Positions 18,001 through 60,000 of a DNA stretch of 64,000 nucleotides are shown here, one piece after another. The stretch covers positions 31,419,230 to 31,483,229 of the forward strand of contig OY979716.1 in the NCBI GenBank assembly GCA_963855995.1, written 5' to 3'. This DNA comes from Muricea muricata. Taxonomy: Eukaryota; Cnidaria; Anthozoa; Malacalcyonacea; Plexauridae. The notes under the pieces are model-generated. The model saw only the letters and a list, made by a program, of their open reading frames with translations, did not search any database and was not told the DNA's origin. Every line of letters starts with the position of its first letter. Within the stretch, counting starts at the first letter, position 1. The translations under genes were made by a program, and so were the position numbers.

Positions 18001-21000
18001 CACTATTAGGAATATCAAGCTGTTTTATCTTGTTGACGAGTAGGCAATGATCAATCAAATCGAACGCTTTGCTGTAGTCGCATAATAATACTCGTGTTAT
18101 GATTCTTCCTTTTATTTCTACTACGCGAGGTAGGAGATCTTTACAGCTTATTAATTCTACAGTTCAATAGGTCGTCTTCTTCTTCTGCGCTTGTTGGTCT
18201 GTCTTGTCTTGTTTTGTCTTGTCTTCTCGAGTAGAGTTTTCGCTTCTTTCGCTACTCTTCAGCTACAACTCGGGATTCAGCTGGGACGGTCTTTTATACT
18301 AACGGTCGTAGGCGTTTTTATGCAGGTGACCAGAATGATGGGCTGATATGGGCTCAGCCAATCAGGTCTAGGTTTTGGATTGCTGAACTCTCGCACCAGC
18401 TCTTTTCCTTTATTTATTTAAGGCGTTGTCGCACTGTCTTAGTCGGTCGTATGCTCCGCCAACATTATTTAAAAAAAATGTTCAAACTTAACTTATTTCG
18501 TTGATTTCCTTAGTAAAACTTAATACCTCTATATATATGAACTCAACTTCAATGTTTCACTTTTTGCTTATCTACAATTCCACAATACTACATTTTATGA
18601 CGTAACACTTTTTATTTCCTGACCGCGCGAAATACCCGTACAAATGATTGACGGCAAAGCCCCAAAAGTTTTTGTATCGTTAATTATACTGCAGTGACGC
18701 TAAACTGAAAACGATTACTGACATGTTTGCGCAAGGTACCAAATTAACTTTTCAAACATTGACAGTTTAAGTATCATTAATTACATTGCGACGCCAACGG
18801 AAGAAATAACTGACATGTTTGCGCAAGACACCAATTTATAATTTCTTTTATGTACTTGCAAAATCAAACATGCCAATCATCTCTCCCGCTGATGTATGTA
18901 GTGTTTACCTTGCCTGGGCAAATATAATTTGGCTGTTTTTATGCTATAATATATTTTTATGCTATAATATATTTTTATGCTATAATATATTTTTATGCTT
19001 TTTATGCTGTACTGCTTCGTAACACTCGAATAGTGGATCCTGTTCCATCTGTGTCATCCAGCCACTTGTGAAACATACTAATCCGGGCCTTAACTGTAGA
19101 GGAGCCAGGTACTGTTCCAAATTGGCGGGGATCAATTATTTTCAGGATTAGTAACTATATATAGCCTCACTTGTAAGAGCAGCGAACCAATTTTCACCTT
19201 TGTTTAAAGAAAAAAACTACATGTTTTTGCCGAAAAATGGAAATAATACAAGAAAACACTAAAATGATGAACAGGTATTTTTTTAGTTTAAATAATATTC
19301 TATATAGCAATTTTGTTTAGCATTATTAATCGAAAATTAATATTACTGACTTGGGACTTAAATTGTTTACAACTATATAATAAATGTGATGAAAACAATA
19401 TTTTACTCACACGCTGCGCTCGTTCGTAAAATATTGTTTTAACCACTCGAAGATAAAATTCATATCTTCGCACCGCCGTGTAATATCCTTTATATATTAC
19501 TCACTTTCTATAGATTTGCATTTCTTTTGGGGACCATAAATAATAATGTAAATCACTGAAGGGTATGTAGGACAATTATTATGATGTATAGGCAAGGTAC
19601 AGTGATGTTGTGGCAATGTAAATAATTCACTTATATTCACTAACGGGTATAATGTACAGTCATGACAGGGAATTATAACACAATCTTGACAATTATGATA
19701 TTTAATAAAAAAATATGTACAGTAATGGTATTTATGCAGGTTTTTACCTATATAGGTGAGGTAATTTAAGGTTTTGCGAGTTGTTTTGGGAGGTAGCTCC
19801 CTCCAAATTTCTCACGATTTTTTACTGCTTTTATTTATGGTAGCCCATGGTTACTCGGTTACATAGTTTTACGAACCCATTACACTACCTCTGACAAATC
19901 TCAATAGGTTAATTAGGTATTTGGAATATCACCTAGGATTGGGTAAAATTGATAGTCTATACTTATAGTATCATAATGACAAAATTATCATATACAATGA
20001 ACATATCCCTTTGACGAGTAAAATCGTCTGGGGCCAGTGGTTGAAAGCCGGCTTACCCTTACCAAAAAACACATGGAAATCACATGTGTTTCGAAAATAG
20101 ACATCTTGTATTCCTGATATTCAAGAACGAACAAGAAAAGAATACAAGATGTCTATTTTCGGAATTTGTTCTATTTTGTATCACATGCGTTTTACATGGT
20201 AATCACATGTCTCAATCTCATTCGTGATTGAATTTAACCAATCTTTGTTGGTCACAAACAGTAAATTGGTTACCTATTTAACCAATTATAAACTGGTAAA
20301 TATTAATTTATCTTAAGATGTCTTCCATAAATTATATCATGCATGCACAGATATAGACGTATATTGAATAGATGAAGATATGGTCAGCGGACCATAGTGA
20401 CCATAATATTCATTTGTGTTATGATGTCTACTATTCGCTTTATAGTAATATTGTCGGGATAAGAAATTATATTTATAGAATAAGTACATGTCAATAGGTT
20501 AATCAGGTATTTTGGAATATCACCTAGGAATGGGTAAAATTGATAGTCTATACTTATAGTATCATAATGACAAAATTATCATATACACTAAAAAATATCC
20601 CTGTTCCTCATCGAAATCACCCGTCTTTCCCTTACCACTACCAAAGAAAATAAAAATTTATAATAAACTTCCATAAGTAGTAGGTTGTCACACTGCAAGG
20701 AGAATCTATTTTCACTCAACACAAAATCAACTATTGCTTTTTATTACAGTGAATGTAATGAACATAAAGTTATAAACCATCAGGCATTGTCATTATATGT
20801 AATTACAAAGTTACATAAAGTAGAATTAAAAGCTAAGAATGCAGCTATGGTTGGCTTTGTAACATAAGCTAACTAAACTGCAATTTCTAAACAACACACA
20901 CACCCCAGTTTGCCCCACAAACAAACAAGGTTGCCCTTTTACAGCATATCTAGCTGACTGCTGAGGTTGTAAAAGGTTTGTTTACAAGTCTAAAACGCTT

Positions 21001-33000: not shown

Positions 33001-36000
33001 CAGCTTGTAGACAGTTTCTTAATAAAAATGTCGGTTTTATTGTCTCTTGAGTTATTTGCTGATCGTTGTCGCTTTCCTAAAAGATAAAGAAAAATACATA
33101 TTCACAAATATAAGCTGGCGGATTTAAATCACATACACACGTTCCTTTCGTTAAATTCAGGGCAACAGGTGATTAACCAAACATCAAAAAAGATGGTAGG
33201 CCCAAACTACTGAATCTCTGCTCAACGTTTCTCATCTTCTCCAGCATCTCGATGATATTCTCAATGTTATTTTTAATTTTGAAAAACATATAAATTAACA
33301 AAAAACACATAAGTTAATCAAAGATTAACTGTACAGGAACACAAAATTTAAACATATGGGGGACATACCCGTCGTATTTGGGTCAGGGTTGCTGGTATTC
33401 ATAAATAATTAGGCGAAACTATTATTAGTTTCCTCAAGAAAACAAATAAAACTAAATGCTAATAAAATTAAAAACAAAGAGCATTGTTACGAATTTTGGC
33501 CTGAATTCATGAATACTAACAAACCTGTTCGCATCAATAGTTTAAGAGCAGTAATAATTGTCAGAGCATGTGCAAATCAGCTATAAATAATTCTTCGCTT
33601 TCATTTGAAGCACTGTAGCTTTTTACACAAAATTGCCAGATTTGTGCTGTTACACAATTGTCTTACCCTTAACATTTCCACACGAGATTCTGAACTGTCG
33701 TCGATACCAACCTCCATGTCTTCAATGTCATCACCTCTTGCTATGTTTTCAATTGAAATTTCAATTTCCGGTTGAAAAAGATCACTTACAGAACGATTTA
33801 TAAGCTTTTCAATCTGAGGAAACTGCTCGTTTGATTCAAGAAGTTCGTCAATATGCGCTGCCTGCCACTTTCCACCTTGAAATCCGACAAAATGTTGACA
33901 CCCCCCAGCAATCTTTGGTAATTGAATAATGAAGACGATGTGGATCGGCTTCACAGACTCTTGAATAATGTCTTCTATTGTACGATGACGTGTTTCTTCA
34001 GCAAGATAACGACAGCACGCAATCAAGTTGAAGTTCGCCTCACCATTGTCGCATTGAACAAGCAGCAGACCTTCAGCACCACCAAGTTGAACAAAGAAAT
34101 CCCTACATAAGTATTAAGTAAGTATTAAGAGAAACATCTACTGGATACACGTAGAAATTAGACTACGTATTGTTTCTGATCGAATGAAGTCAAAAGAAAA
34201 GTACTTTCAGCTACTTAAATTGAGGGAGGAGTTCACTAAATATACTGTTGTATTTCATTATTACTTATCGAATGGTAAAAGTGAGGCAGCGAATGGACTA
34301 TGTTAAAAGTGGATACCAAAAAAATTATTTTCCTCCAACATTAATCGTTGCCGTTAAAGATATCTTCCCGAAGATTCTTCAACTCATTAATCTTACGCAA
34401 CAAACGGTTTACAAGTAAGAGAATTTTAACAGCTTTATTGCCGTTATTTTTAGGGCTTTCAAACTCCCAAAAACCTATTAAGTGTTCTGAAAAAAATGAA
34501 ATAATAGATAATAAAGATAATAAAAAATCAGGATCATTTTTGGCAGAAGATATGTTGTTTTCACTTTCGGATTTCCAAAATTCTTTGAGCATTGAATACT
34601 CCACTGCTCATATATATGCAGCATCAATACTTACTCTAACGCCTTGACGAATTGCTGCTCTGTATGAAATTCTTGAAGACTAATACAACGAGACTGAGAA
34701 CCACTAAACCCTGCTGCTGATGCTATGGCTCGAGAATTTGCTTGTGATAGAAGTCGAGAGTGTGTTGTTATCTAAAAAAAATATCAGCAATTATATTATT
34801 GTTAGAATTGAAACGTGATGATTTAAGTGACGATTACAAAAAAATTAATAACGGTAATTGCACTGAGTTGAGTGTACGTTGGTATGAAATCAAACGCGTT
34901 TTTTCTTAAAATTTGATCTCAGACCAAAATTGCACGACACGAAGTACAATTTCCACTTTATTATACTCATTTTGAAATCTACAAGTGGCAAAATTAGTTA
35001 TTTGTTCTGAGTAGATTCAAGCAATTGATGAAGAAAAAAAAGGCAAAGGCACAAGAAGCAAGTTTAGACATATATTTTTTGTGTACTTTCATAGAGCATT
35101 TTAGATGCGATAAATGTGCATTTAAATCACCGAATTTCGCATCGTTGTAATTGTTGCTATCAAGTTTATTATTTGTTAATGACAAATATATGTTGAATTG
35201 TAGAATTTTTCCTAACTATGTGTTAATTCTTTTAGTATTTTGTTTAGATTCTTCAGTATTTTCTTGTCTCTTATTTCATTTTTAAAAAATATTTAGTGTG
35301 TATTTTAAACAAATTTCATGGCAATCAATCAGGGTTATATTTGGGTTATAGTTTGGCTAGCTAGTAATTAATCTGATTGGTTGACTTTGTTGAGCGCTCA
35401 AATAGATGAAAAATGATGCGAATAATGATCCAAAATGGTGCGAATTTGGAATTAATCGCACTGTTTTAACCAATTAGATTGCAGGAAACACCATTGATTT
35501 CAAATTGAATGCAATAACTTGTGAAAATAATTATTAATTCGCGAAGAAGACACAAAAAAATTTAACATATTTAATCACTGTAAATCGGTTAGAGATTTTC
35601 CCCTGATTTAAATAAATCATAATATTGATTTTCTAATCAAATATGTTTCATTTCTTAGCGATTTCTAGTCAGAAATTTTAAAAACGTGCCTGGACAAGAG
35701 AACCATGGTTTTCGGTATTGTCAACGTCTCTTAAACAATGAACTACGTAGTCTTTCAAACTGCCATGTTTCTGATTGATGAAATATTCTCTCCAATATTT
35801 TTCGGCATCATCTTTAAGTTTTGTTGCTGGCAGTCTAGCAATAGCATCAGGTGATGCACATTGCAACAATGTGTTTTGTGATTGCAAGAGAATCTAGGAA
35901 GTTAAATAGTTAAGTCACTTGTTAGAAAGAAATTATATGAACAGGAGAGAAGTATTTTGTTTACAATAAGATTTTTCATTCAACTTTAGGTACCCAGTGT

Positions 36001-39000: not shown

Positions 39001-42000
39001 CTGATTGGACAAAAGCGCATCACGAGCCGGTCGGCAAAACGTCATGTTTAATCAATTGCTATGGCGACAGGGCAACCGGTCAACATTAAAACATTTTTTG
39101 ACCGGTCAAAATTAAAATGAGTGAAGAGCGCATGCTCAAGAATGTTTTTAAATTAATAAACATTTAACTGTTCAGTGATGTTTTCTTATTTTTTAAAGGC
39201 AGCCCATTTATCTAGTTTTGTTTTCAAAGCTGACTCCAATAACCGGTGTATTATTTACACTTTAACACATGTACTATATAACAAAATACTTATTGACTGA
39301 GACCTCGGGAAAGCAGTATGTTTTGTGGACCCTCGACTGTCGATGTTTCCCTCGGCTTCGCCTCGGGAACATCGGCAGTCTCGGGTCCACAAAACATACT
39401 GTTTCCCTCGGTCTCAGTCAATAAGTGTTAATAGTATCACCATGCATTTGAACTTAACAGAAGAATATTTGCTACCTCTCGTCAAATGAAGATACATGCT
39501 TTGCTTCAGAGAAAAGATTGACCCAGTCTTCCAGTTCTTTAACTAAGCGAGCTTGATGGGGTGTCAAACCAGTTGACGTCACAAGTAAATGTTTTTCCAG
39601 TCGATTGATAAGAGGAATTGGAAAACGTTTGTAAACAACGTCTTTTTCAGCGACAACAATCAATCTGCAGAAAATAAAGACGGCTTTAATACACATGGAA
39701 TAACTGCGGAATAAACGTAATTAGTACTTTTACACAAGTGAATATAAGAAAACCGACGTTGTGATTGGTTAAATTTGACACAACATTCCTTATATTCATC
39801 TACAACAAATATAACAGTAAAAACAAGTTTACAAAATGACAACTAGCCGCTAGCCACCAGCAAAAATAATAAAATTTTTATAAAAAGTCAATATTATCAA
39901 TACGAGTGTTTGCGATTCATCTTGAGTTATGGAGCTTTTTTAACAACAGTTTCAATATGAAGGCCGTTTTAAATACGTTAGGATCACTTATGACTTTTTC
40001 ATTCTTTTAAAAATTTGGAACAAACAGTCTTCGATTTTTGCCAATCTTACCCAAAATTTTGTTCAATTTATACTAAAATGGTAAAGCTAATCTGCTCGGT
40101 TTTGGTATGACTAAATTCATTTTAATACACACGAAATAATTTCTTAGACAGAACTTACTTAAACTTGTCTGCCACTCGACATTTCACTCTATGGTTTCCC
40201 AGACCAAGATCTACATACTTTTGTTTATCAAGATACACATAATACTAAAGGAAAGGAGAGATTAGTTTAAATTTTATAATGTTGCAATTCTTATTGCGTA
40301 AAGTGAATGCTTCGTTAAAGACTCTGATATCAAATAATATGGCGGACTATCACGAACAGCGAGATGTGATTGGCTAAATTTACATTTGAATGACTAATGA
40401 CGAAAGTCAGTTAAATACCGATGATGACAAATTTGTATTTTGCACTGTTTATTGCAAAGTATTTTTTAAAGTGCTAATGAAACGAAATTTTCTCTCACAA
40501 TTTATTGATTGCATTGTGAATATCAGCAGCATTGGGAATAAACGTTCCCTACACAAATATTTAGTTAAAATTGAAGTTTAAACAACCTGAAATAGCATAA
40601 CCTAATTATACGTAATATTTATAAACAAATCGTGTAAATCTATCAATAGTTTTTGCAGTTTTGCCAAAAAAAATTAACGTGTTGCCATTGTTACAACCTT
40701 TTTGTATTCCACTGAGCTCAATATAATGGCTGTAACAATAATTCAATGATGTAGGTACATTCATTTTCATCATTTTAAAACAACGACGAAACGAATAAAG
40801 TAATTTTTGTACTAATTTAATTATTAATCAGGATTATATTAATGTTATACTAAAATGTATTAAAACGGTACCACCGGGCTTTTTGACTTCAAAATGCGAG
40901 GAGTAATTGCATGCAATGTATTTCTAATAATTTGAATAAATAGTATGGTTTAAGATAAACAATGCACGATTACGAAAAAAATTGCGGCATGTACAAATAT
41001 TTTTCCATTTTCACCTTGCAAACGTCAACAGGACATTACTGAATAATGACGAGAAATTTCAGCACAATAAACAAATCTCCTGTCTTACTTCTTCTATCTT
41101 TCTTCTATCTTTCCATAGTGCGACATGGAAATGGTACTACGTTTTATCGTACTAGGTGCAGTGTTATCAATATTCGATAGTCATGCAATATATATGGGCT
41201 TTACGTTCATTAGATCTACTAGAAATACATGCATACAGCAACCCCTCGCCATTAACTAAGGGCATGCAACTATATTTTCGCAATTACATGAAGTACTTGT
41301 ATAGGTTGTTGTCATAGCAACACGGCAATTGTTATTCTTTCTGTATATTTTTTCAAAATGACAAAATATTGAGTTGTTTTATTGACAATTTTTTAAAATG
41401 GCACACCATTTGTCATCGGTATGTTATTACGCCTAATGTAAGCTTAAATTTGATATAAAATACGACCTATTAATTACATATATTAGACGTTTTGAAATAA
41501 ATTGTATTTATTTATTTATTTATGTATTTACATTATTGACACTCCCCTGAAGGGGCTTTTCAGTGACAAATTGACATTATAAATCATATTACAGTATCTT
41601 TACGAATATTATTATAACATTAACAAAACAATCTTAAACATAAAAAAACAGATAACGTACATACAATAACAATAACAACAACAACAATAACGACAATAAT
41701 AACAATAACATTAACCATAACAATAACAATAACAGCGACTATGACTGTGACAATGACAATGGAAATGACAGTGACAATGACAATGACAATAACAATGACA
41801 ATGGCAATGACAATAACAATCATGACCACAACATCAATAACAGTGACACGTTTTTCCATTTAGTTATCGAGATATTGTTGAAGTAGTTTATGTTTTAGTT
41901 TTACTTTAAAGCTTAGGAAAGAGTTGCCCAGTTTTAGAGCAGGATCAATGTTATTCCAGAGAGTGATGGTTTTGTAGAGAAACGTTTTTTGTCCAGTAGC

Positions 42001-45000
42001 AGTTTTGAATAAAGGAACATCTAATTTATGGTCATTTCTTGTTTCCCGACAACTCACTTCACGTCTAGTTCTGAACTGCGATGACAAATAGTCAGGTGCA
42101 CAGTTGTTCATACATTTGAATGCCAACAGAGCATCACGAGAGTAAAGATGTGATTTCACAGGAATCCAGCGTAAATCTTTTAGGACTGGTGTGATTTGAT
42201 CGAATTTCCTGGAATTGCTCACAACTCGTGCTGCAAAATTCTGAACTCCTTGGAGTCGCCCTTTGTTGATACAGGAGGTGGATGACCAGAGCGTAGAGCA
42301 ATAATGCAGCTTGCTAAGCACTAAGCAATTTATCACAGTTATGAGTAGACTTTTGCTGAACGCATGCTTAGCCCGATTTATTTGACAGAGGGTTGAATTG
42401 CAGGATGATACTGTAGACAGGATGTGGTCGTCAAAGGAGAGCACTGGACCAAACGTGACTCCTAGATCTTTAACTGATTTGGACGTAGTAAGATCTTTAC
42501 CCAGTAATGAGATTCTAAATTCAGGTAGCTTTGCGAGCATTTGGCGGCTTCCGTAGATCATTAATTTTGTCTTCTCTGGGTTGAGTAGAAAATTATCAAA
42601 GCACCAATTACGTATTCGAATCAGATCACCATTAACATCAACCACTGCAGTACTTGAGTTATTGATATAAAAGGATAAAAGTAATTTAGTGTCATCAACG
42701 TATGACTCTGAGGAACACTTCTTGATGCTAGACGACAGATCGTTAACATAAATACTAAAAAGCAACGGACCAAGTATTGACTACCTTGAGGCACACCACT
42801 AACGACAGGTAATTTATCTGATAAGGTCGAATTAATACGTACTGTTTGATATCTCTCACTAAGATAGCTTTTATAAACCAACTAAGGCATGAAGACGACA
42901 CACCAACATGCTTCAGTTTAGCAAGTAGGATTTCATGGTTAATGCTGTCAAAAGCTTTGCTCATATCTAAGAGAATAACTGCTGTTACTTTCTTCTGGTC
43001 AATTGCTTTCAGGATGGAGTCAGTAGAGTTAATGAGAGAGGTTTCGGTTGAGTGCCAAGCTTTGTTACCGCTCTGATGTGCGGAGACGACGATTTACTGT
43101 CAAGTAAGATGTTAGTTGATAAAGTGCAATCCGCTCGCATATTTTGGGAAGCACTGGTAACAGGGAAATAGGTCTGTTGTTATTAGGTTGCTCATGATCA
43201 CCGTCTTTATGAATAAGAATAACTTCGGCGATTTTCCAAGCAGTTGGAAAATTATTGTTCGCAAACGAATTGTTGATGATAGAAGTAATCCATGGTGCGA
43301 TGACGGGCAGACAATCCTTGATAACACGGATTGTTATTTTATCTATTCCTGGTGCTTTATAATCTGGCATAGATCTCACTAAATATCCAACTAGGGAGGA
43401 CTCCACAGGTTCAAAGGAAAACTGTTCAGATTCAGGATAACTGTCTGGGACGAACTTTGATGGATGGTAGTTGTTTTCTTTAGCAAGTGATTGGACTTTC
43501 TTAACTGTATTTGAACCAACTGATGTGCAGAATTCATTAAAGTTATTCGCCACAGATTTTTCATCAGCGCTGAAGCATTTATTTCCATTGAATATCTTAG
43601 GAATACATGTGTGAATTATTTTCCACATATTGCTGGAGTTATTAGAGTCTTTCTTTATCTCCTGCTCAACATACGATTTCTGTGCTAAACGTAATAGTCG
43701 TTTAACCTCACGTTTACAGTTCCAATAAAAATATTTCTGAAACTAAATTTTTATCTACATAAACTTTGAGTTTGAAATAAAACCGTTTCAAGCCAATTTT
43801 GTATCTTCGCTCATATTCTTTTACATGTAAAGTCCGTCAATATTTTGAAATAAAGTAATAAGAAGACAGTCTTGCATTTACAAAACATAAACTTACTCTG
43901 GAATTTAAACAGTGAATAGACTGGAGGAGTACGGCTACGCCGGCCTTTATAAATCATTAAAACACAAGTATAAATACGCATTATCAACAAACGTGCCTTG
44001 TGTTTCACGCCGTAGTCAATTCTTGGCGCTTCTCTGTATTTTCCCAGAATTAATCTCTCTTCAAGAGTCTTGTCACAGTCGTTTTCGTCTCAGTTCTCGA
44101 TCGCCTTTTTGGATGCCTTAAGTGTTTGCTACTCCTGATATTCCGCCATATTCTTGAGATGATAAATGACCACCCTTCGTTGGTTGTGAAAGTTGCCAAA
44201 TCTTTTTTGCAAAAATACAAAATATTGTAGAGCAAAAAGCAAATTTAGATATTTGCTTGCTGTATGTATGTATGTAAAACTTTATTTCAACACGCTATCT
44301 TCGTCAACTATTTACATCAGTTGGTTTCCACGAAGGGCGTACTATGTACATTAAATCTAAGATATGTTACAAAACACACATTAATTAAACTTTTAATAAC
44401 TAGTATAAATTTAACCAAACCCTTCCCTTAACCATTAATATTGCCAGGCTTCCCGCCCCCCCTTGAATTCGTGATTAATCAATCAACAATAGATTTTAAA
44501 TCTGGCCAATCAGTGTTAGCCATTCATGATAGTCCGCCATATTGTTGAGATCAGTGAGGATGACGTCATGACATACCACTTTTACTACCTACCTATCACG
44601 AGCAACGACTTTGAACTCCGCTAATACGAAATTAGTAACCCTCGCTTCGCGCCGTTGGCTCGGGGATTGCAAAGATCAGTCAAAATGACAACATTATTTC
44701 TTTGGTAGAATTTTTGTAACACCTTCCTTGTCGAGATATTCAACTTTATTGGATATGCAAATAACACAATCACCGGCGTCACACTGTAAGGGTGCATGCT
44801 ATGATTACAATCCAGGCCTGGCAATTTATGTGCAATATTTTAGCTAATTCTTGAAAAAATGAAACTTTCTGAAAATTCATTATGTAGAATGACGGCGGCA
44901 AGTGGTTGTTTTATTTTTGTATCAAATAAGATTGAAAATCTCGAAAAGTTATGGTGTGATTTTTACTGACTGCACAGAAGAGAAAATTTCGTTTCATAAA

Positions 45001-48000
45001 CAATTTAAGAGCTCCGTAATAAATATATACACATGAATAAGTTATCAACATCCGACAAGTTTAAAACACACCTGATTCAATGCATCGTATAGACTTTCAT
45101 AAAGACTTTCTAAGTTCAGCAAGATTACCATCGTTCCTGTCTCCATGCACACTTTGATTCGATTGATGTTTCGACAAATCTAAAATACAGTAAATATTAT
45201 TTACACTTTCTTCGGGCAATAATTTTAATATGATGTGATAGTAAGGATAAACTATTATTATACGGCTTTGAAGAATCCTGCATTCTGATTGGTCGACGTG
45301 CGGTCCGTAAAAACCCGTATTCGGAGCGTGGTCCGTAAATTTCATTGGGACCGGGCTTTTTCCCAGTGTTTTCAATCGCACTTTTTACTGCTTGCAATAC
45401 ACTTATTAATGAAATTGATGTTTTACTGATATGCTTAAAGGGGCACTTCGATGAAACTTTGGGGGCCGATTTTTTTCTATTTTCTGAAACTGCGTTTCTT
45501 GAAATACATACCAGTTAAATATCAGCACAAAATATTGAGTAAAAAGCTTTCAAAGCTCCGATCGAAAATTCGTATTTTACGGCCGCCATTGATTTGAGCC
45601 TGTTTTTAAATTGTGAACAGCGGTCTGTTGTGACGTCATTTTCTCACTTTTTTCTGCTTTTGCTGCTTGTCCTGATATTTTACTGGTATACATTTCAATA
45701 AACGCAGTTTCAGAAAATAAAAAAAAATCGCCCCCCAAAGTTTCATCGAAGTGCCCCTTTAAAAGCTTAATGTGTAAAAAATAATGTTTTGTCATGTTTA
45801 AACTTTTATGTATTCTAATTAACGAAACCACGATCGACGTCATTTAAATACAAAATGTCATACTAACTCTGAAAACGACTGCGAGCCATATGATAAACAG
45901 TTTATTGACATCGCTTGTTCGGTCTGTACCGTGAAATATTGGACTTCGGTTTTTTAGTACGGACCTCGCTCGCACGGTCCGTACTAAAAAACCTTAGTCC
46001 GATATTTCACGGTACAGCCCTCACGCTGGGTCAATAATCCTTTATTATTGCATGAGTTTGGACACGATATTGAAGCATATTTGCCTCCTATACCAATGGC
46101 TGCACTTCCAGAATTGTTTAATATCCAAGCCACACAAATCGAAGCGGTAGGTCACGTCTACGTACAGTTTGTTCACTTCGTAATTTACTTCATGTTCTCA
46201 CTCAATTTTACTGTTTGCCAGTGTTCCGCTTTTGCATATGACAGGACAAAATTGTGGGTCAGTGTACCTGTACGGCGGTGACTGAATGCATGGATCAATT
46301 ACTGATATTCTTATACAGCTAATTCAAAAAAGGTTGTCCATTCAAACCTTAAACTCTAAGCACGCAAAGCATGAAGGGAGCACAATTTAAGCTGCCTAGA
46401 AAGCATATATGGAGCCCATTTTTCTAGAGACATGGTAACTATCCCCCAAGAAAACATTCCACTCACAAATAGCTCCAATATGCAAATCTAAAGCTTAAAA
46501 TTTGTCCCTCATCATCCTTTGTGTGCTTAGAGTTTAAGGTTTGAAAGGACAACCTTTTTTGAATTAGCTGTATACATCTGGACAGCTTGCCTGGCTTCAA
46601 AACGCGTTATTCAAGATAGCCAAAATTGCTCAAGGCGACTACTTCATTTCCACGTGCTGAAGTGGATATATACCCATTATACAAGGTGCATGAAAAGTAG
46701 ACTATTTTCAAACGGCTCTCAACATTAATTAGGAAGCGGCTTAAGTTTTTTTTATTAATATAGATTGCTTTGGGTACTTGTGACGTGGAGTAAACGAAAA
46801 TAGTCTGAAATTCAAATGTTTAAAAACCCAGGGGGGGGGGGGGGGCATTTTCGAACGCATTAAAATTGGCTTGCTCCCAAAATTTGAATGCATAACACTA
46901 ATTTTAACTTGGTACGTAGAAAATATGCTAGTTGTTTTATTGCTGTTGAAAATTCAGGGACGCCAGAAAGGGGGGGCGCAGGGGAGGCCTCGCCCCCCTT
47001 GCCCTTTCTCAAGGGGGGCAGGGGGGCAAAAGAGCCCTTTTATAAAGTATACTTTATAAATGTATATATGTGGACGGAATCGTATCATCTGAGCATTGTA
47101 AACCATTTATTGTCAACTATTTGTAGCGAAATTGTTACTACTGCATATAGATTTTTGATTTCCGCATTATAAGAATTTCTTGGTTTACTGATTTGCGGGT
47201 TTACGTCGACCACTTTATAAATATAATTCATAACACCAAAGTTGCCCTTGCCGTCTGCATTGCCCCCCTTTGCCCTACCTTCGTTCCGGCGTCCCTGTGA
47301 AAATTCCAAAAAATTTGAGTTACTATAAGCCCTTCAAAACGTCGTTAGGACTTACATTTTTCTTAATACGGATCTTTTTCTAAATAAATCATTTTTCTTT
47401 TTGGTTAAGGAAAAACGATTGTGTGTGTTGCTTCGTTCTATGAGGCCAACCAGCCAGTATTTTAACTCTCATAAAACTCTCATCCAGTATTGGTGGCTCG
47501 GATTATACTCTCATATTCGTCAGCCTTTCAATCGACAACGCAATCATACAAACAGGCAGTCAAAATGACCACTTCTACTCTTTTTACACATATATTATTT
47601 AATTCATTAATTTAAAGGCACAATGCACCACCCCACGTGACCTAAAACACCGCTGTTGATTAATGGATAGAACTAATGGCTCAGGTTTCGCGCAATGCTA
47701 ATACACTATGCAAATATGGCGGAATACGAAGAGTTGCCAGATTTTAGCTCTGCTTCACAAAGCGAAATCGCGATGGATTCATCTCCTGAAGAAGAAAATT
47801 CTGAATCAGAACATTCTAGCGAGGTATAAGAAGACGATTATTTATCCACTCCTCATAACATATAAATTATTTGGCATGAAATTCCGAACCTTGGACCAAT
47901 GGTCACCAATTTACAATTTATATTGTCAAATATTATAAACAGTCAAATGGAGACCTCTTAGCAGGGATTCACATCCTCAGATTGCTAATTTCTAAAATTA

Positions 48001-51000
48001 TGCGCTTTTACAATGATAGTACTCACTTTGTATGCTGTTCATGTCATATAAGTTGCTTTCGACTTATCTCAATATTATCCGCATGCTTTATAAACATTTG
48101 TATTTCAATATTTTTTGAAGGACCTTTTGAATATGTGTTTATCTAATAAATATAACTTTCTGCACATTATAGTCAACGGATGCACCGCCAGTGAGTTGTT
48201 CTTGCAAGTCAAAGTGTTTGCGCAAGCTACAAACATCGAAAAACGGGAAAGTAACTGGTTGTGCATGTAGAGGAAATGGTGTGATGTGTGGAGAAATGTG
48301 CTCTTGTGGTACTAAGTGTAAAAATAAGGTACATAAGAGATAAAATATTGCAACTTTATGATATTCTTATGCACACAAACAGTGTTTATGATAGAATATA
48401 CTTTAATTATAGCCACCAATAGAAGGTCAAACGATGACAGCTACAGCTGTGCTGCAAAGTGACATAAGTGAGCAGAGTGAAGTTTCAGTAGAGGTAAATG
48501 GTTCATATTGTATTTGATGATATACGTTAGCCAGCAAAGTTGACATGACAGATGATATGAGCTGTCCTGCCTTGTTCTGCATGTATATTTGTAAAAAAAC
48601 TTAAGACAATGAATTACATATACTATTTTGGTGTTCATGTTGCATAGGAAATAATTGATGGTTTGGACAACGAGACCCTGGTCAAAGTGGCAAAAGAGGG
48701 TTTCAAGTCTAGGCCGTTAGTTTTGAAAGATTTGGTGCAACAAATGAAAGACAGTGCAGAGACAGAACAACAGGCAAGTCGTACCTCTGAAGTACCAGTA
48801 CCATTTTGTGTTTGTGGATATTGTCGGGAGATGCCATCTGACAAAGAGAGAGTTTGCTGCAAACAAAGGCGGCTGTGCCGCAGTAGAACATTAGCATTCC
48901 AAAACATTTGCTTAGATTCAGACAATTTGGCCACTGTTATAAGGAGTCTAGCAGATACCTATGTCTTCACTCCAACATATGACAACAGAGCAATGAGGCA
49001 TGCAGCATACAGGCAATACGTCATGTGGATACATGGTCATTTAGGTAAAGGCCATCGAAAAGTCATTCCATCATGCTGTGTGTGGGAAATAAGAAAGCAC
49101 TATCCATCACCCAATGGTGGATACACTGGATTTAAAGACAGATAGGAAATATTTAAATTTATAATGTTGACATTGGCTGCAAGGAAGAAACATTTTGTAT
49201 ATAATAATTTAGTCACTGCAACACAAAATATCATCACTTTAATACATGTACTTCCTTTTATACACCAAAATATACATTCATTTACTGTATATGCATAACT
49301 ATATTAATATTCAAAGTTGTTTCAAAAAGTGTCAACAAAACAAAGTCACAAATTTTTTTTCAGGAAGCCAAGTATTTCATTTTGTGAGTTATTTGTTGTT
49401 AAAAGATTTGTTTTACCACATTGTCTTCAATTTGTACCCTTGCTAGTGTGACTATAATCTCCAGGGTGAAATGGGTCACCCATCCAAGTACTAAACCTAA
49501 CTAGGGTGAGAGACAGTGTATTCACCTTCAATTCCTAGTCTCTCATTTAAGTCCTAATCTCTTGTAACCCCTTCCCATATGCAGCAGAGTCTGATAACAT
49601 CATATAGCTCATTAACAACTTTCCAGATATCAGTTTCATGTTCACCTTTTTTATTATTTACTATGTAGAACTCAACCAAATTTAACGCAAAAAAAGCTAT
49701 GACATGATGTCAAGTTTTGTTACAAGCACCTCAATTATTAAAGATGCTGTCCAGTCCATATTGTAAAGAAACACTTTGTTCACATTGTGAACTGCCCCAT
49801 TTGTAAAATATGATTTACCTACTGAATATCTGGCACTGTTCTGGTTTGCTATCAGTCGTAAATGAGGAAAACCATAGTTTCAATTCAAAAAAAGTTTGAG
49901 TCAAACTTTTTTGAATTGAAACTATGGTTTTCCACATTTATTACTGATAGCAAACCAAAACAGTGCCAGATATTCAGTAGGTAAATCTTGTCAGATGTGA
50001 AATTTTGACAATATGAATGGAACGGACTGGACCCAGCTTATTGGTTTTTCAAGTATTGGTTTTGTGATCAATTACCCAAACTTGTTAATTACCCATACTT
50101 GAAATAATATATACATCTTGGAGTCATCAACATGGTTCTTTAAACATTGATTTGTACAATAATTTTAAAGTTAAAACCTTGAAGTATGCTCTTTGACAAG
50201 TTCGGACGTTTTTGGGGCATGGATTGCTGCAATGGTAGGAGCAATTTTCTTTGGATTTTGCTCAGAAGTGACAGGCTTTACATTCTTCATGAATTCTTTG
50301 CTGGCATTTTTAAGCACACCTGCACACATTATTGGAAGATAGCTGTAGTTCTTCTTCTCTTTCACAATAACCACTTTCCATCTTTTTGCACGCTTGCTCC
50401 AACGCCGTGAAAATACCAACTGCCCCTTCGCATCACGTGCTTGACTTCTATGGAGATGGTGATTATGGTCGATTGCAGCCAGATGGCTACGAGCTAGCAA
50501 ACATTCATATCTGTAAATAAACGTAAAGTTCTACTGCAATTAATTGTTTATACACCTATTTTTTGCACATAATTTATAATATACCCTAGAATATAAGATA
50601 TGTTGAACACTTACGAAAATCCAAATCGTTTGGGAGCATACATGAGTCTGTGACTGTGGTAGGCCTCTAGCTTTCCAGTGTGACTACAAATAAAAGTAAA
50701 CAAAAACATAAGAAATATTAGTAAAATACAACTTAAAAAAATTCTAAAATTACAAGCACACTGCAGATATTTTGTATGCTCTTAACAAATAATAACATAA
50801 ACTAATAGTTATAATCACCGGAAATTTGTGTAAAATGGAAGTGATTTCAAGAACTTCTTGTCCAAGACAACATCACGCAAAGCTTGCATGGCTGGCGAAT
50901 CCTTATCAATCCACTCCCTTTCACTTCCATCATCCGTCAAAGGCCCATGGCTGCACTGACCATTGTACCAAGTGTGGACATTGGTAACATGTTTTAAAAG

Positions 51001-54000
51001 GTTGATCCAATTAGTCTAACAATAAAATCAACACAATATAAAATTGTTTTGGTCAGAATGTTTTGTTCATGAAAACGTTTAGGGCAAAGTGCATAGTGCA
51101 ATAGATAAAACATTGATAGTACCAACTACATTCACATAACTGTATCCTATATTAATTTTTTTAAAAAAATGTATACCTTAAGTTTTTTTAGGTCACCTCC
51201 ACATGTTTTAACACAGTGCCAGAAGTGATTCCTGATGGGGGCAATCCATGACTTCAATATGGCATTTTTTCGTTTTTTTCCAGCCTTCAAAAGATATATA
51301 TCATCTTAGCCATCAAGCAATATAACTATAACTCTTAAATATCCTGCAAACAAACCTCCAACAACTTTTTATCTAACTTGTTGCTTTTATGCCATACATC
51401 CAACTGGTGCAGGACTTTCTCATACCTCTTGTCTGTTGCTAAAGAAACAGAATAAAAAAACCTTGAGTTTAGCGTAAAGTATCATTAAAAGTTTGTTTAT
51501 ACCAACAATAAATATTTTACGATGACGTTCTTAATGATATGCGGGATTATCAAGTTCGAGGCAAAAGTTAGGGATGAAACTCTAACCAAGAAATTGATGA
51601 TAATTTTGATATGACTTTGGTAAGACTGAATGCAATTGGACCAGTAGACTCAAGATAGAATTGAAGATGAAAAGCTAAGCATACACATACAGTAGCTGAA
51701 ACTCAATTAACTGTTACCATATATATACTATAACTTTCAGCATACATATGCACTGGCAAAAACCATGTACAAGTACCATGTATAAGAAGCTGCTTAGCAA
51801 GCTGTGAACATTGTGTACCATTTTATCATTTTTTCGACTATGGTACTCGGCATATCACAGAACATAAAACTAGTTTAATAGTGTGTTATATACTCACCTA
51901 ACATTTTGATTAATTGTGATGAGGCATCAGTGACCAGCTCTTCAATTGATAGTTTTTTCATCACAAAATTCAAAGCCCTTTCACAACCAACTTTTTCCAT
52001 GACTGCACTTTTAAGCTGGGAATGCCGGACATCAACCAATTCCACATGCAGTACATAGTCCAGTTCTGCATGCATCAGTGTGTAAACACAGTTCTTGGCA
52101 GAGAACCCTGGTGAATCCATTTGGCCATCCCCAGCTAGAACAACTGGCTGGTTGACAAGAACAGAAAACATTCTTTCTTGCATATCTTTCCACCATGAAT
52201 TAACGAGGGGTATGAGGTACTTTCTTTGGTACTGGTGGAACGTTGATGGACTAAAAAAGGCTAAAGACATGCACTTTGAGAGCAATGATATCTTAGTGAA
52301 ATTGTTCCCAGAGAAAAGTAATGAAGCTGCTGTCAGTAAGTTGTTCACATATAACTTCCTGACCATTTTGCTTGATTGCCATTCACCACAATGACCAGCC
52401 TTGCATTTCCACCTAATTTCCAAAACACAGCCAACAAATCTTTCACTTGTCTCAATCAATGGCATTTTGCAGTCAATGTCCATGCAACAGGAAAACAGTT
52501 CTCGAATTTTGCTTATACTGCAGAGGAACTTATTTTCATTCACCATAAATACTTCATTCTCAAGACCAATGCCTTTTTCCTTTTCATACCCAACAGACAG
52601 AAGTCTCACTGAAGGGCTGTGTCCCTCCACCACATCAATATGCTCTGCAGGAACTATTGGCACATCACACTCAATTGAGCCCAGATCTTGTGTTGAGCTT
52701 ATCTCCATATTAACTGGACCAATCTGTGTTGAGTCAATAAAATCTTGTTTATGATCAAGGAAATCTGTATCATATCACATGTTCAAATTGTTGAAATCTG
52801 GGAATAGTTCACTAGGATGGTCATCATCACTTTCATTGTCAATAACATCTGATTCCCAACATACATCATCTCCACTTTCATCTGCACTGTCATCTTTATC
52901 AATTTCAGCATCACTTTCATCATCACTGTCCTTATCACGAGACTGAATAGCAATGGAAGTGTTTCTAATAACAGAGTCAATAAAAGTCTTCTCACAAGTT
53001 GGTATGGAGGCATGTTCGACCACAATTGAGGACTCTGGTACATCTACAATAGAAACATGACACATAAATGTATAGGGTATGTAGTAAACTGGTCCTAGTC
53101 ATACAGTATGTGAAGAATAAAGGCAGTAAGCCAGTACTGCATTAAAATAATAATTTGTCATGATCTTTTTTCTATATATAATGATGTTATGTACTCAGGT
53201 TAATATGATGTAAGTGTTGCTACTCTGAGTGTATATCCACACCGGGCAAGCTTGAAAAATATGCCTGGCCATGGTGGGATTCGAACCTACGACATCTGGA
53301 AAGGGGATTCCAGAGGTCGTAGGTTCGAATCCCACCCTGGCCAGGCATATTTTTCAAGCTTGCCCGGTGTGGATATACACTCAGAGTAGCAACACTTACA
53401 TAATAATTTGTCACTTTGGCAAATACCATTGTACTTTGGACTTGATGGGGGGGGGGGGGGGGGTTGGGTTAATAAAGATATAAATATAGTTCATTTCAGA
53501 AATCAGAATATGAAAAAAATTTGCATTTGATAGTCATCCAAATCGTGTATGTTGCAATTCTAAATTATATATAACAACCCAATAATTACCAGATTGGAAA
53601 AGTTGAGCTTTGGCCTTGGTCTTTCGTGGTGTTGACGATTTTGGAGGAGAGCCAATTTGACTAAACAATGGACTGTCAAACCTTTATAAAACGAAGGGAA
53701 TACTGTATAAGCTCAAACCTATTTGATACTATTATACGTTTAAATTCCACAATGAATAGCTTCACAATTAATAGAAAATACAAAACCATTTATCCCTACC
53801 TTTCAAGGCCAGCTGCCTGGGTTGATATATCCGAACGAAAGGTCATTTCCGCGTCAGTGGCCGCGTTTGCCGCACGTTTCAAGAGAAATTGAGCAAACGC
53901 GGAGTTTTCCTTGAAGTTGTGTGCTGTTCGCAAGGCCATCCATTCTTCGTAAACGTTCGCATGCAAGGAGATTGTCTTCCAAAGACTGCTGCGAACATTT

Positions 54001-57000
54001 TCATAGCCTTCTTCGTGTTTTCGTTTCCTTCCAGAACCGCGTCTTTTTCCTCCGCGTGACCTAACAGCTTCAGGCGCCCGAAAACTAGGGCCAGGTTCAC
54101 TAGGTCGTCGAAAGGTTTGTTCAGTATCCGTATCACTTTTTGAGCTTTCCATGGCAAATATCACAAAGAAAGCATGTCTTATTTGAAACACATTTCGAGA
54201 CAGATGACTGAACTCTGCGCCATGTGTGGCTACTTTGTCTGAACACACAGGTATCACGTTACACCTCACCATAATGCATGATAAAAATAAACGCAAACAC
54301 CGGAAGTAGTTTATTTCTTCTGATTTTGCACCAGAAAAAAATCCAACATTTTGTTACTTGGGTTAAAACTGCTACGCGCTCTTTCTGCGGGCGCCATTTT
54401 CGTTTTAGAAACTTTGATTTACAACATTAAGTTTTTCAAAATATCGAACACACTGCGCATGCGCGAGTTTAGAAGTTATACTGCCTTTAAGAAAATGGAT
54501 AGAAATTGTCAATATATACCTGAGTGTACTGTTGGTCTTTCGGGAAACTACTTCCAAAAATTACAACGGGGTCGCGATCGCGAAACTGGCCTTGCAAGAA
54601 TCTCAGTGCTGCATAGTTCTCAGTGAGAACAAGTAAATATCGACTTTCTCTAAACAAAAAAAGTTTATTTAATTTAATGTATCGATTAAGCTTTAAATCA
54701 CGAAGGAATGAAAAAAAAGGAAAACAAGACAAATGTTTTGCATGTGAAAAATGGGTCAGTGGGGGTGAAGTGCTTCGCTAATAAAAACAATAACAGCATT
54801 ATTGGGATCATAGACTCATAAACACGCAAAATTATGTAACCTAGCGCTCTGTTTAACGCCCGCAAGGAGACGGAAGGCGTCTGGAGATACAATTCTCATC
54901 AAGCAATGTTAAAGGGGTTACAATCCCCTCTAACATTAACCTGTTAAGGAGGTACAATCCTCCCTGGACAGTTCCTAGAATTTTCATCGATTATATTTCC
55001 AAAAAAAATTGCGAGTCTATGGCCAGAAAGTAATCATTAGGAGCACTTCAATTCCATGACTATGATTTTATTATTATAATAAACGCCAATTACAAAGACG
55101 CCAGTTGAAGTTCGACAATTTACAATAGCTCCACTCCTTGGTTTGTTCACATAAAATAACACTTTTGGACCACGGTCAAGATATTGTAAAAAGCCGTCCG
55201 CTCCTGTAGCCAATTAGATTGTAAGAAATCAAAAAATATTACTGGGCATGTACAGGCATAAGACATTTTTATCTGCTATCAGGTACACATGCTTGCATTG
55301 TGCGCAGAACGTGATCACTGATGCCCTATACTGACAAATCACAGCCATACAAGCTTTAACTTTGTAAATCTATCAATAGTTTTGGCAGTTTTGCAAAAAA
55401 AAACAAACAAAAATTAACGTGTTGCCATTGTTAAAACATTTTTGTATTCCACTAATAGTTGCTGTAACAATAATTCAGTAACAGTAATATTCCACATAGA
55501 ATGGCTGTGACAATAATTCAATCATGTAGGTACATTCATTTTCATCATTTTAAAACAACGACAAAACGAGCAAAGTAATTTTTGTACTAATTTAATTATT
55601 AATCAGGGGCTGGTTGTTCAAAAGCTGATTAGCTTAACCCTGGGTTAACTTGAAATTGAAAGGAAATTCCCTAATGTGTTGTTTATAACCCTGGGAAAAT
55701 TTCTTCAGAAATCTTATCTGTATCAATAATAGTTTTGGTTGCTAAAGTTTTGGAAGAAACGGAGGGGTAAAAATACAGAAACTAAACAGTGGGTTAAATT
55801 TTAACCCAGGGTTAGCACTAACCCAGCTTTGAACAACTGGCGCCAGGATAATATTAATGTTATATTAAAATGTATTAAAACGGTACCACCAGGCTTTTGA
55901 CCTCAAAATGCGAGGGGGTCATTGCATGCAATGTATTTCTAATAGTTTGAATAAATAGTATGATTTAAGATAAACAATGCAGGATTATGAAAAAAAATTG
56001 CGGCATGTACAAATATTTTTCCATTTTCACCTTGCAAACGTCAATCTGCTATCAGGTACACATGCTTGCATCGTGCGCACAGCGTGATCACTGATGCCCT
56101 ATACTGACAAATCACAGCCATACAAGCTCTAACTTTATATAATACAAGGAAATATCATTATATAATAACTACAGTGAAACACATAATCTGATTGGTCAAC
56201 AGAATAGGAGAGACAATCCTGCACGGGAAATTTTTGTTGTGAGAATTTTAGTTTTGATCAATTAATTTCAAAATTTTGTTCTTGTTGTTTCACTGTAGTC
56301 ATTTTATAAAACAATTACCTAATAGTTTTCCGTGCAGGTTGGCTTCATATCCATGCACTTGAGTTGTGGCTTGACTTTCGGAACGTTACTTCCGAAAGTC
56401 TTGCCACAACTCGCGTGCATGGATGACGCTATCCTGCACGGAAAACTATTCGGTATTCCTTTAATATTATTATTAAATCGTCACAGTATTAAACAACAAA
56501 GCCAAGCATAAAGACTATCATTATACTCGTACAGCTTACACAAATCGACTTGACAAGTAAGATATTAAATATTTAATATCTCAGAAATATCATAACAGCG
56601 TACCATGCCAGGACACTAAGTTCCGCAGTTAACAGAGTACGGACTACACTACAATATCCATATGCGATGAAATATTTCAATGCCAGATGAGTCCGCCCAC
56701 TAAGCGAACAATACTTTTGCAATAATTCTCTTGGTCAGTGCTCGCTCAGTCGATGTTTCCTGCTTAAAATAGTCACCGCTAATTTGAAATTTAGCGAACA
56801 AAGTACAAAAACTCTGACTGGCTACAAGCGAACAGCTAACAGTTACAGCTCGCGCACGACAACAATATATCATTTGCAGAAGCAAAAAGTCAACTTACCC
56901 TTCATTTTCAGTCCTACCAAGACTGTCTTCAATAAGAGACACTGGGTGGCATTCAGGCGAGGGATGCTTAAAAAAGATGACACTTTACTCACGTGTACAT

Positions 57001-60000
57001 GTAATAAAATACGAAAATAAGCATTTGTTTTTTGGAAAGGGGAGGAGGCTTGTGTGTGTAGTCGTTGCATTGATAGCTGCAAAAATATCATTTGGCGTAC
57101 AAGACAATAAATTTCACTATGGTATTGGTTACCTTTATACATCCTTTAAGTCTTTTATATTCCCTACTAAATATCTTCATTGGATCAAGATCATCGAGAC
57201 CACTGAAATTCCTTCTGATGCATTGTTCCAGTTCTATATCACTGACTAGGGCACCTGATTCTGCCTGCTCAGCAAAACCATATACCATCTTTACTAAACT
57301 ATAAACATTTATAAAGGGACGATTTAAAAATTATGTATTCTTCCTAATTGTTTATTCCTACAACAGAGCTCTTTAAGTGTCTAGTGACCAGCTTTACTGT
57401 TTATTTCAAAACGAGCACAACTTGTTAAACGTACATATAGTAAACATTATTTGTGAAACTCATTAATAATTCACGAGAAAACACAAAACCACATATTTAA
57501 TCAATATTTGTAAATCCGATACAGATTTCGTCATGATTTACATAAAATTAATGTTTGATTTTCTGACTAAACATTAATTTCTTTGTGATTACGAACGTTT
57601 TTATCCAGACGTTTCAGAAGTACGACACTGAAGGTATTCGTAACTGATTTACAACCGCTCGCCTTTGCCTCAGGGTTGTATATAAGTCAGATAAAGATTG
57701 GCTGTTGATGTTGTGGCTATTATTTAATACTGAATATTTATAAGTTTAGGTGTTATTAACCACGCAAACCTACAAATAATTTCCTACAAACCTACGAACC
57801 TACGAATACTCAGAAAACTCGAAAATTTCTGGCCCGCTCCCAGTTTTATGACAACTTCCGCCACTGAATAACTTTATTACCAGATTAAACACCAACCTGT
57901 AGAAGTCTCGAAGTCCAAAGAATTCGTCTTTTTGGGCACTTTTCAGGGTGTTCGACTTGCTCTGTTCTTTATAAAGGTCTAAATATCCCTTACACAACCT
58001 CCTTATATGTACAGTAAGAAGACTTTGAATATGTTCATCACCAGAACAAATTCCACTAACAAAGTAAAAAAATAGATAGGTATGCTAAGCATACATGTTT
58101 CTGCGAATGTGGTCATTTTGAATAATTGAATCATCAATGATTCTCAAATGTCTTAAATAACAGTATATGCCAGGAAACTAAAGTTAAAACTGTCCGCCAA
58201 ATATTGGCAAAGTATTATATTGTCTGAGTAAATAAAAAAATAAAGCAAGACATAGCATTAGAAAGATAACATGTAAAATAATATAACGGACGAATAAATA
58301 AAGTCCAAGGTGGAAACTACATGCATAAGAAAAGGTGTTTTAAAAAAAATATGTCAGGTGTTTTATTGCTGTCAAAAATTTCAAGACATCTGATTGGGTT
58401 TAAGCCATTCCATCTATAAAGTCAAAAATACTTTTAAGCATTTAAGTTTTGCGCGCAAGCCATATTTAACTTGTCGTACAAGACACAACTCCCCAGGTAT
58501 TGAAGTTTTAGGTTTCTTATTTTTTCGGTTTATTATCAACTTTATATATCTGCTTTGGAGATACAAAAACCAATGTTACTGGCGAACATAGACAAACTGA
58601 GTCTGCTTATCCTTCACCACACAATCCAGACGATTTTTTATTAGATTCAAATATTAAATATTATGGACTAATAATGCCTCAAACCTTGCGCTATCACACA
58701 GATCTTTCTCAGTTGGAACTCCTCTACTCAACATAATGCCCCGGTTCATTTTAGCAGGATCCAACGCCCAGTTTGACAAACCAATAAAACCAACACGATG
58801 ATAATCAGATCTGGCTCCTGATTCTTCAGCAGTTGCTGTACCATCTTCCAAGAGAGGATGAAGAGTTTTTAAAGGCATCAAAGGAGAATCTTCGGCCAAT
58901 CCAATTTCGTCTAGAACCACCACAGACACAAATTTATTCAAGTCTTTGTCTTTCTGAAGCTTTGCACACTGTCTGAACGTTGATACTATTCCTTCTGGAG
59001 TAGACAACGGACTGCACTGGTAAGATTGCATGTGGATCTAAAAAAACAACACAATTTGAAAAGAGTATTTAATGAAGTGATCGATAAAAAATCCAATCGA
59101 CAAAAAGTCGCATGTAGCTATTGCGCAGTTGTGCTATCACAGTGTGAAAAGAATCCTCGTTGACCGGTCAAGAAAAACCAGAAGCGAGACATGCGTTAGT
59201 TTATACGCGATTCTTGTTCAAAATATATGAATATATACTAAATAAAACAAACTTGGTGCTTTGTCTTATTCATTTGTCTTTATCATAAATTTCTTTCTCA
59301 TCAATTCTCGGTAAACCCTGATAAATTCTTGCATTCCTGCATTTAATTGTTGTGAGGAAATCAATCTTCAACGGAAATTATTTATTGTAAAACAAATTAT
59401 AGATCGTCTGCGTACCTGTTTTAAGTTCTTAAACAATTCACTTTGGGAGTTTCCAGCCTTCATGTTGGTAGATATAACATCTTTTGCTAAAGACTTGGAA
59501 CTGCCTGGTTTGCCAACAACAAACAACGGAATACGCAGCTCTGTACAGATTGCCATCATAAATACATTTTCACTGAGAGCAATATTTCTGGCGATATTTT
59601 GACCCAGTTGTATGTCCTCTAAAAACCCACGTTGACACCTGGAAACACACATAACAGTAACTTTTTAAAATAACTCTACATAACTTAGAAATAAATGTAT
59701 GGCCAAAGCCCTGAGAAAAGCGATTGCTTTACATTAACTTACCTGATAATTTCATCTTGCATTCTACCTACACCTCCAGGTAATGGACAAGAATTGTCAA
59801 AATATCTGCAAATTTCTCTGCAATATGCTTGTCTGTCATTTAATCTGGCGTAGTAACAAACACCAATGCCCAGGATTACAGCACGTGTAATTTTAGTTAG
59901 TGGCTATACGGAAAAATAGCAAAAGTGTAAAATTAGTTAATTACAATATACGAAGATGGTTCTTACTTTTACCTTTGAATATAAAATTAAAAATTTTGTG

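Follow-up and report, generated by a model that had tools for sequence, protein, structure and literature searches.

Here, we have analysed a window of 64,000 nucleotides from the octocoral Muricea muricata (contig OY979716.1, positions 31,419,230 to 31,483,229 of the forward strand) and found that it contains a real and well-supported Kolobok transposon in which a transposase gene converges with a gene for a stand-alone P2X7-type ballast domain. The element is almost certainly a two-gene, TTAA-targeting Kolobok of the Kol0 type that lies in an intron of an RNF213-like gene, and its second gene is the KolX gene of such elements; the family is new in an octocoral host and of a kind already known. 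The two genes form one unit that is flanked by TTAA, recurs at other loci, has unoccupied sites, and shows ratios of nonsynonymous to synonymous substitution rates (dN/dS) below 1 in both genes. The boundaries are as follows.

47616..54486, no strand: whole Kolobok-type transposon, 6871 bp; copy L009 shares both ends at another locus
47612..47615, no strand: TTAA, left copy of the target-site duplication
54487..54490, no strand: TTAA, right copy of the target-site duplication

An earlier reading of the DNA from its letters alone (the sequence-only reading) had placed a Kolobok-type transposon here, and its coordinates are exact. The termini AGGCA and TGCCT stand immediately inside the TTAA on each side. 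In the window copy the identity of the ends is short, 9 bp including TTAA and 5 bp inside the element, and the ends diverge further in. Such a short identity would fit a host ballast gene that simply lay beside a transposon, with TTAA ends there by chance. This explanation is refuted by L009, in which both genes lie between the same pair of ends: L009 spans the element from TTAA to TTAA (98.96% identity over 47611-53160 and 96.95% over 53400-54490), and its flanks differ from those of the window. Moreover, copies L017-L020 have inverted ends that are longer than those of the window copy, with 22 to 24 matches in the first 24 bases, and these ends enclose both genes. Together with the unoccupied sites described below, these observations leave unrelated neighbours with a negligible probability. 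KolX lies on the + strand and the transposase on the - strand, and the 9-mer TTAAAGGCA is found in both spacers ahead of the start codons (101 bp for KolX, 334 bp for the transposase). If bases were independent and drawn at the composition of the window, its occurrence in both would be expected about 1e-6 times.

That the pairing is not peculiar to this locus came from searches of the same genome. For the ballast exon, 150 of 682 candidates were scored, and all 150 matched at E <= 0.001; for the transposase, 150 of 715 candidates were scored. After fragments had been merged, the 150 of each came down to 145 loci for the ballast exon and 146 for the transposase. A transposase was found within 15 kb of 94 of the 145 ballast loci, and the two genes were convergent in 89 of these pairs, divergent in 2 and on the same strand in 3, while random placement gave a mean of 3.3 pairs and a maximum of 11 in 200 placements. 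Because only 150 of the 715 transposase candidates were scored, the number of 94 paired loci is a lower bound.

We fetched 20 copies with their flanks from the first 24 rows of the ballast list, omitting the row of the window and three others that were short or distant. Counting the window copy, both TTAA ends were found in 11 of 21 copies (window, L009, L013, L014, L015, L017, L018, L019, L020, L023 and L024). The ballast gene is inside the element in all 11, and the transposase extends beyond exons 1-2 in nine of them, though in L018 it does so in pieces only. Among the 20 fetched loci, 18 have a transposase match at E <= 0.001; the exceptions are L021 and L025, and the match in L022 covers 25 residues only. 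In L011 there is an extra weak transposase match, separate and outside the element. L015 (1321-4348) and L024 (1372-4418) are 3.0-kb derivatives that are 92.9% identical end to end and share one internal deletion. Both retain KolX and exons 1-2 of the transposase but have lost the transposase core, and in both the KolX frame is interrupted by stops or shifts. The proposal that gene and transposase make up one mobile unit, for which the sequence-only reading had suggested a search for further copies, is thus upheld by L009 with its same ends and other flanks, by the genome-wide convergent pairing and by the unoccupied sites.

The unoccupied sites are paralogous sites within the same genome. The clear case is that of L014, which lies inside a satellite with a unit of ~322 bp. 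Ten stretches of the L014 locus align to the whole of its joined flanks with 87.6-97.5% identity over ~403 columns; in the three satellite units displayed, identity across the L014 junction is 121 of 124 bases, and each unit has a single TTAA. L023 lies inside an open reading frame resembling those of long interspersed nuclear elements (LINEs), and a relative of this frame at window positions 8361-8591 is uninterrupted at the site (73.6% over 231 columns), in a comparison that has only 27 bases of right flank and in which the target reads TTAG. The joined flanks of the window copy itself align across the junction to contig C66 (74.8% over 361 columns, E = 5e-61). The C66 stretch is a diverged paralogue of the window site and no allele, and three further places match the right flank of the window copy only.

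The gene model of KolX consists of four exons with GT/AG borders and compatible phases, which would encode a protein of 280 residues.

47716..47823, + strand: KolX exon 1, start codon and acidic stretch; matched in L009, L011 and L012 among others
48173..48328, + strand: KolX exon 2, nine-cysteine CXC-like exon
48413..48493, + strand: KolX exon 3, GT/AG, phase 0
48648..49145, + strand: KolX exon 4, ballast domain P2RX7_C, stop codon

The last exon matches the Pfam family P2RX7_C (PF20478) with E = 3.9e-28. Among solved structures, the sequences that match the KolX ballast at E <= 0.001 are four distinct ones, all of P2X7 (E = 5.9e-15), and the ballast cysteines align with those of P2X7. Relatives were found as 39 proteins at E <= 0.001 among 225 candidates, every one of which has PF20478, and C57, C60, C71 and C72 (numbered in a 166-residue piece) are invariant across 18 aligned ballast sequences. 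A structure predicted from 33 sequences has a mean predicted local distance difference test score (pLDDT) of 71.6, with residues 41-75, which contain five cysteines, below 50. Its 14 best fold matches are all P2X7 structures, two of them at E <= 0.001, with TM-scores of at most 0.48. We consider the sequence evidence decisive for the ballast identity, and the predicted fold supportive of it. One relative, P0034 (309 residues, JGI source), has its ballast domain joined to an N-terminus with a weak FHA-like match that stays under the cut-off. A ballast match in an open frame of 2543 residues, considered as a P2X7-like host fusion, proved to be artefactual, caused by a run of N; the transposase beside it is the usual convergent one. 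No relatives were found in viral contigs.

Exon 2 of KolX has nine cysteines in an arrangement that we take to resemble that of CXC zinc clusters. Searches at E <= 1 recovered this exon in 19 of the 20 fetched copies, the exception being L027; the matches are partial in L016 and L023 and very weak in L028 (E = 0.005) and L026 (E = 0.07). All nine cysteines are kept in the eight copies that were aligned, namely the window copy and seven chosen of the 20, while one cysteine is lost in L018 and two in L025. The search for a named fold returned only the Pfam family TCR at E = 0.61, far under the cut-off, and one match among solved structures at E = 6.1. The CXC-like cluster is therefore a lead only.

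The transposase model has eight exons on the - strand and a frame of 795 residues with one in-frame stop at codon 238.

53800..54152, - strand: transposase exon 1, residues 1-118 without a Pfam match
53590..53681, - strand: transposase exon 2
51898..53043, - strand: transposase exon 3, acidic linker, both catalytic Asp, in-frame TGA at codon 238
51356..51438, - strand: transposase exon 4, DVWH signature
51177..51284, - strand: transposase exon 5
50819..51015, - strand: transposase exon 6, part of the zinc finger, conserved C615
50615..50683, - strand: transposase exon 7, catalytic Glu (TGKLEAYH)
50171..50510, - strand: transposase exon 8, stop codon

The motif residues are D454, D521, DVWH at 544-547 and E666, and the full frame matches the Mutator-like family PF20700 of Pfam with E = 3.3e-7, above its cut-off. 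This match and the DxWH signature speak against a piggyBac-type element with a KolX-like protein, a reading that would share the TTAA target and for which cases have been published (PMC9587614). The ends of the element are of the RR..YY type, which also argues against piggyBac. In addition, the cysteines that align with P2X7 are kept here, whereas the few piggyBac families reported to carry a KolX-like protein are without most of them (PMC9587614). We therefore give a piggyBac-type element next to no weight.

The search for transposase relatives gave 34 proteins at E <= 0.001 among 7969 candidates. Those with names come from sea anemones, stony corals, a sea fan, echinoderms, a nemertean, a limpet, a tick and a fish, among others. 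In an alignment of 19 rows, made up of the window protein and 18 of the 34 relatives, D454, D521 and C615 are each conserved in 18 rows, D544 and H547 each in 15, and E666 in 14; the rows that do not conserve them are mostly gaps or truncated proteins. Codon 238 is open in P0050 and P0052 and in the same exon of L009, L010, L013 and L014, and the stop is therefore a defect of the window copy. Because of this premature stop, that copy has probably lost its autonomy.

Two inverted repeats lie within the element. A hairpin at ~53161-53405 in transposase intron 2, with 98-bp arms that are 97% complementary, stands beside repeated AATAATTTGTCA. It looks like a nested insertion, since it is missing from L009, and most of that stretch is also missing from L010. 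By eye the hairpin resembled a tRNA; ARAGORN detected no tRNA gene in it. The second repeat (49812-49987, 81-bp arms) separates the 3' ends of KolX and the transposase. It is also present in L009, L011, L012 and L016, and the alignment of L010 skips it.

With respect to classification, the features of the Kolobok superfamily are present: the TTAA target-site duplication, the 5'-RR and YY-3' ends (AG...CT), and the C/DxxH motif between the second D and the E of the DDE transposase. Between DxxH and the last E, where Kolobok lineages other than Kolobok1 have a zinc finger, one could be recognized by eye (HCVKTC from 581, and QCSH with C615). The window transposase has no CCHC pattern of the kind that follows the first D in KolobokP, KolobokE, KolobokD and Kolobok5. 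As regards KolobokP, the longest direct repeat listed in 46500-55500 is 30 nt, compared with the long terminal direct repeats of that lineage, and no nuclease family, including the His-Me nuclease, was matched by the two gene models. The feature of the Kol0 lineage, an accessory KolX gene with a ballast fold, is present. Through its KolX gene, we assign the element to the Kol0 type.

The sequence-only reading knew of no description of this pairing. It has in fact been reported: Kojima & Bao (2022, PMC9587614) describe the KolX protein of Kol0 Kolobok elements as similar to P2X7 residues 476-595 and as adopting the ballast fold, note that this had not previously been pointed out, and state that P2X7 originated when a P2X4-like gene became fused to KolX. 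Beyond that paper, we found no other description of the ballast/Kolobok pairing in the open literature searched. The element shares with Kol0 elements that carry KolX (type element Kolobok-1_XT; PMC9587614) the DDE transposase, a KolX with the ballast fold, the TTAA duplication and the RR..YY ends. It differs in its octocoral host, in genes of eight and four exons, and in a transposase N-terminus without a THAP match. A nine-cysteine exon is not mentioned in the account of KolX in PMC9587614, and this exon and the short derivatives that keep KolX without the transposase core are details that we have not met in print, as far as the published texts consulted extend. XKol of Xenopus (PMC6004289) shares the Kolobok transposase, the TTAA and the AG that adjoins it at the ends. 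The XKol transposase, in contrast, has a THAP domain, and the terms KolX and ballast are absent from the main text of that paper.

Ballast domains are also known from genes taken as host genes. The C-terminal ballast of P2X7 (PDB: 6u9v, 9e3q and others) is homologous, with aligned cysteines and structures that match our predicted model, while the channel part is missing from KolX here. Nanor and Nanor-like genes (Rump et al. 2020, PMC7016195) resemble KolX in encoding short proteins with a C-terminal zinc-cysteine ballast domain; they are treated there as host genes, whereas the ballast gene here is inside a transposon. The Aiptasia ballast example of Rump et al. is AIPGENE13307 (PMC7016195), and AIPGENE13315 of Exaiptasia diaphana is among our transposase matches, which suggests, but does not prove, that the two are neighbours. 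Invertebrate ballast genes counted as host genes (e.g. in PMC7016195) may partly be transposon genes.

Since P2X7 and Nanor are taken as host genes (PMC7016195), the ballast gene could be imagined as a host gene recently captured as cargo by this transposon family. The pairing, on the contrary, is convergent genome-wide and persists across families that differ at half or more of their residues: in L026-L028, KolX is 38-42% identical and the transposase 33-61% by stretch. Kol0 elements of other animals carry KolX too (PMC9587614), and recent capture is very unlikely. The term cargo, used by the sequence-only reading, does not fit a known accessory gene of Kol0-type elements with dN/dS well below 1. 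Between the window and L013, the ballast exon has dN 0.139 and dS 1.72 (ratio 0.08), and transposase exon 3 has dN 0.228 and dS 1.85 (ratio 0.12); between the window and L009 the ratios are 0.13 for KolX and 0.60 for the transposase, on few changes. Because dN/dS is below 1, both genes look kept, and KolX is apparently under purifying selection. Of 13 KolX pairs with the window, six were unusable, five without dS and one without a ratio.

We would like to point out several observations that weigh against the interpretation of a two-gene Kol0 element. In the informative pairs dS approaches saturation, and the close pairs scatter on few changes (0.60 for the window-L009 transposase, 1.6 for the L017-L019 KolX). 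Among the copies examined, none could be shown to have both genes whole; in L009 the KolX frame is whole and the transposase frame is shifted under the window gene model. The splicing of both genes is predicted from frames, phases and GT/AG borders. No counterpart of the THAP domain in Xenopus Kolobok transposases was detected, residues 1-118 having no Pfam match at E up to 10. By an exact end search, 10 of the 21 copies are without one or both ends, and 51 of the 145 scored ballast loci, which include decayed and shortened copies, have no scored transposase nearby. The alignment to C66 is poor left of the junction, and the target there reads TCAA, with flanking blocks that are similar and correctly spaced.

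How the element may move is suggested by the chemistry of its family. The transposase, with its DDE residues and DxWH signature, would excise the element at the AGGCA/TGCCT ends, and the excised element would be inserted at TTAA with duplication of the TTAA. KolX, as an element-encoded protein with a nine-cysteine CXC-like exon and a P2X7-type ballast domain, would most likely act as a transposition cofactor, perhaps through binding of nucleic acids or nucleotides. It is possible, but rather doubtful, that KolX is a two-part zinc protein in which a CXC-type DNA-binding cluster is joined to the ballast, kept by selection as a partner that the transposase needs across the Kolobok families of this octocoral. 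If so, the ballast of P2X7 would be a relic of a transposition cofactor that originally bound nucleic acids or nucleotides. The published claim that ballast genes travel inside Kolobok transposons thus gains evidence on the scale of a genome, including unoccupied sites; our results support a transposon origin of the P2X7 tail and open the role of KolX to testing in cells.

An octocoral host is also indicated by COX1 of this assembly, which shows 97% identity along its full length to that of Coelogorgia palmosa and whose five best matches all come from octocorals. The gene that harbours the element is RNF213-like and lies on the - strand. On one side of the element, the exon at 58657-59037 corresponds to residues 2763-2876 of 7oik; on the other, an open reading frame near 39.5 kb corresponds to residues 3109-3161 and the stretch 33604-34113 to residues 3332-3460. 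As such exons match on both sides, the element is situated between host exons, as the sequence-only reading had proposed. A further candidate for a host exon, short and located at 57.2 kb, had no match among solved structures. Elsewhere in the window, open frames of LINE type that look reverse-transcriptase-like by eye are located at 4557-6044, 8330-9142, 17279-18163 and 41860-42780.

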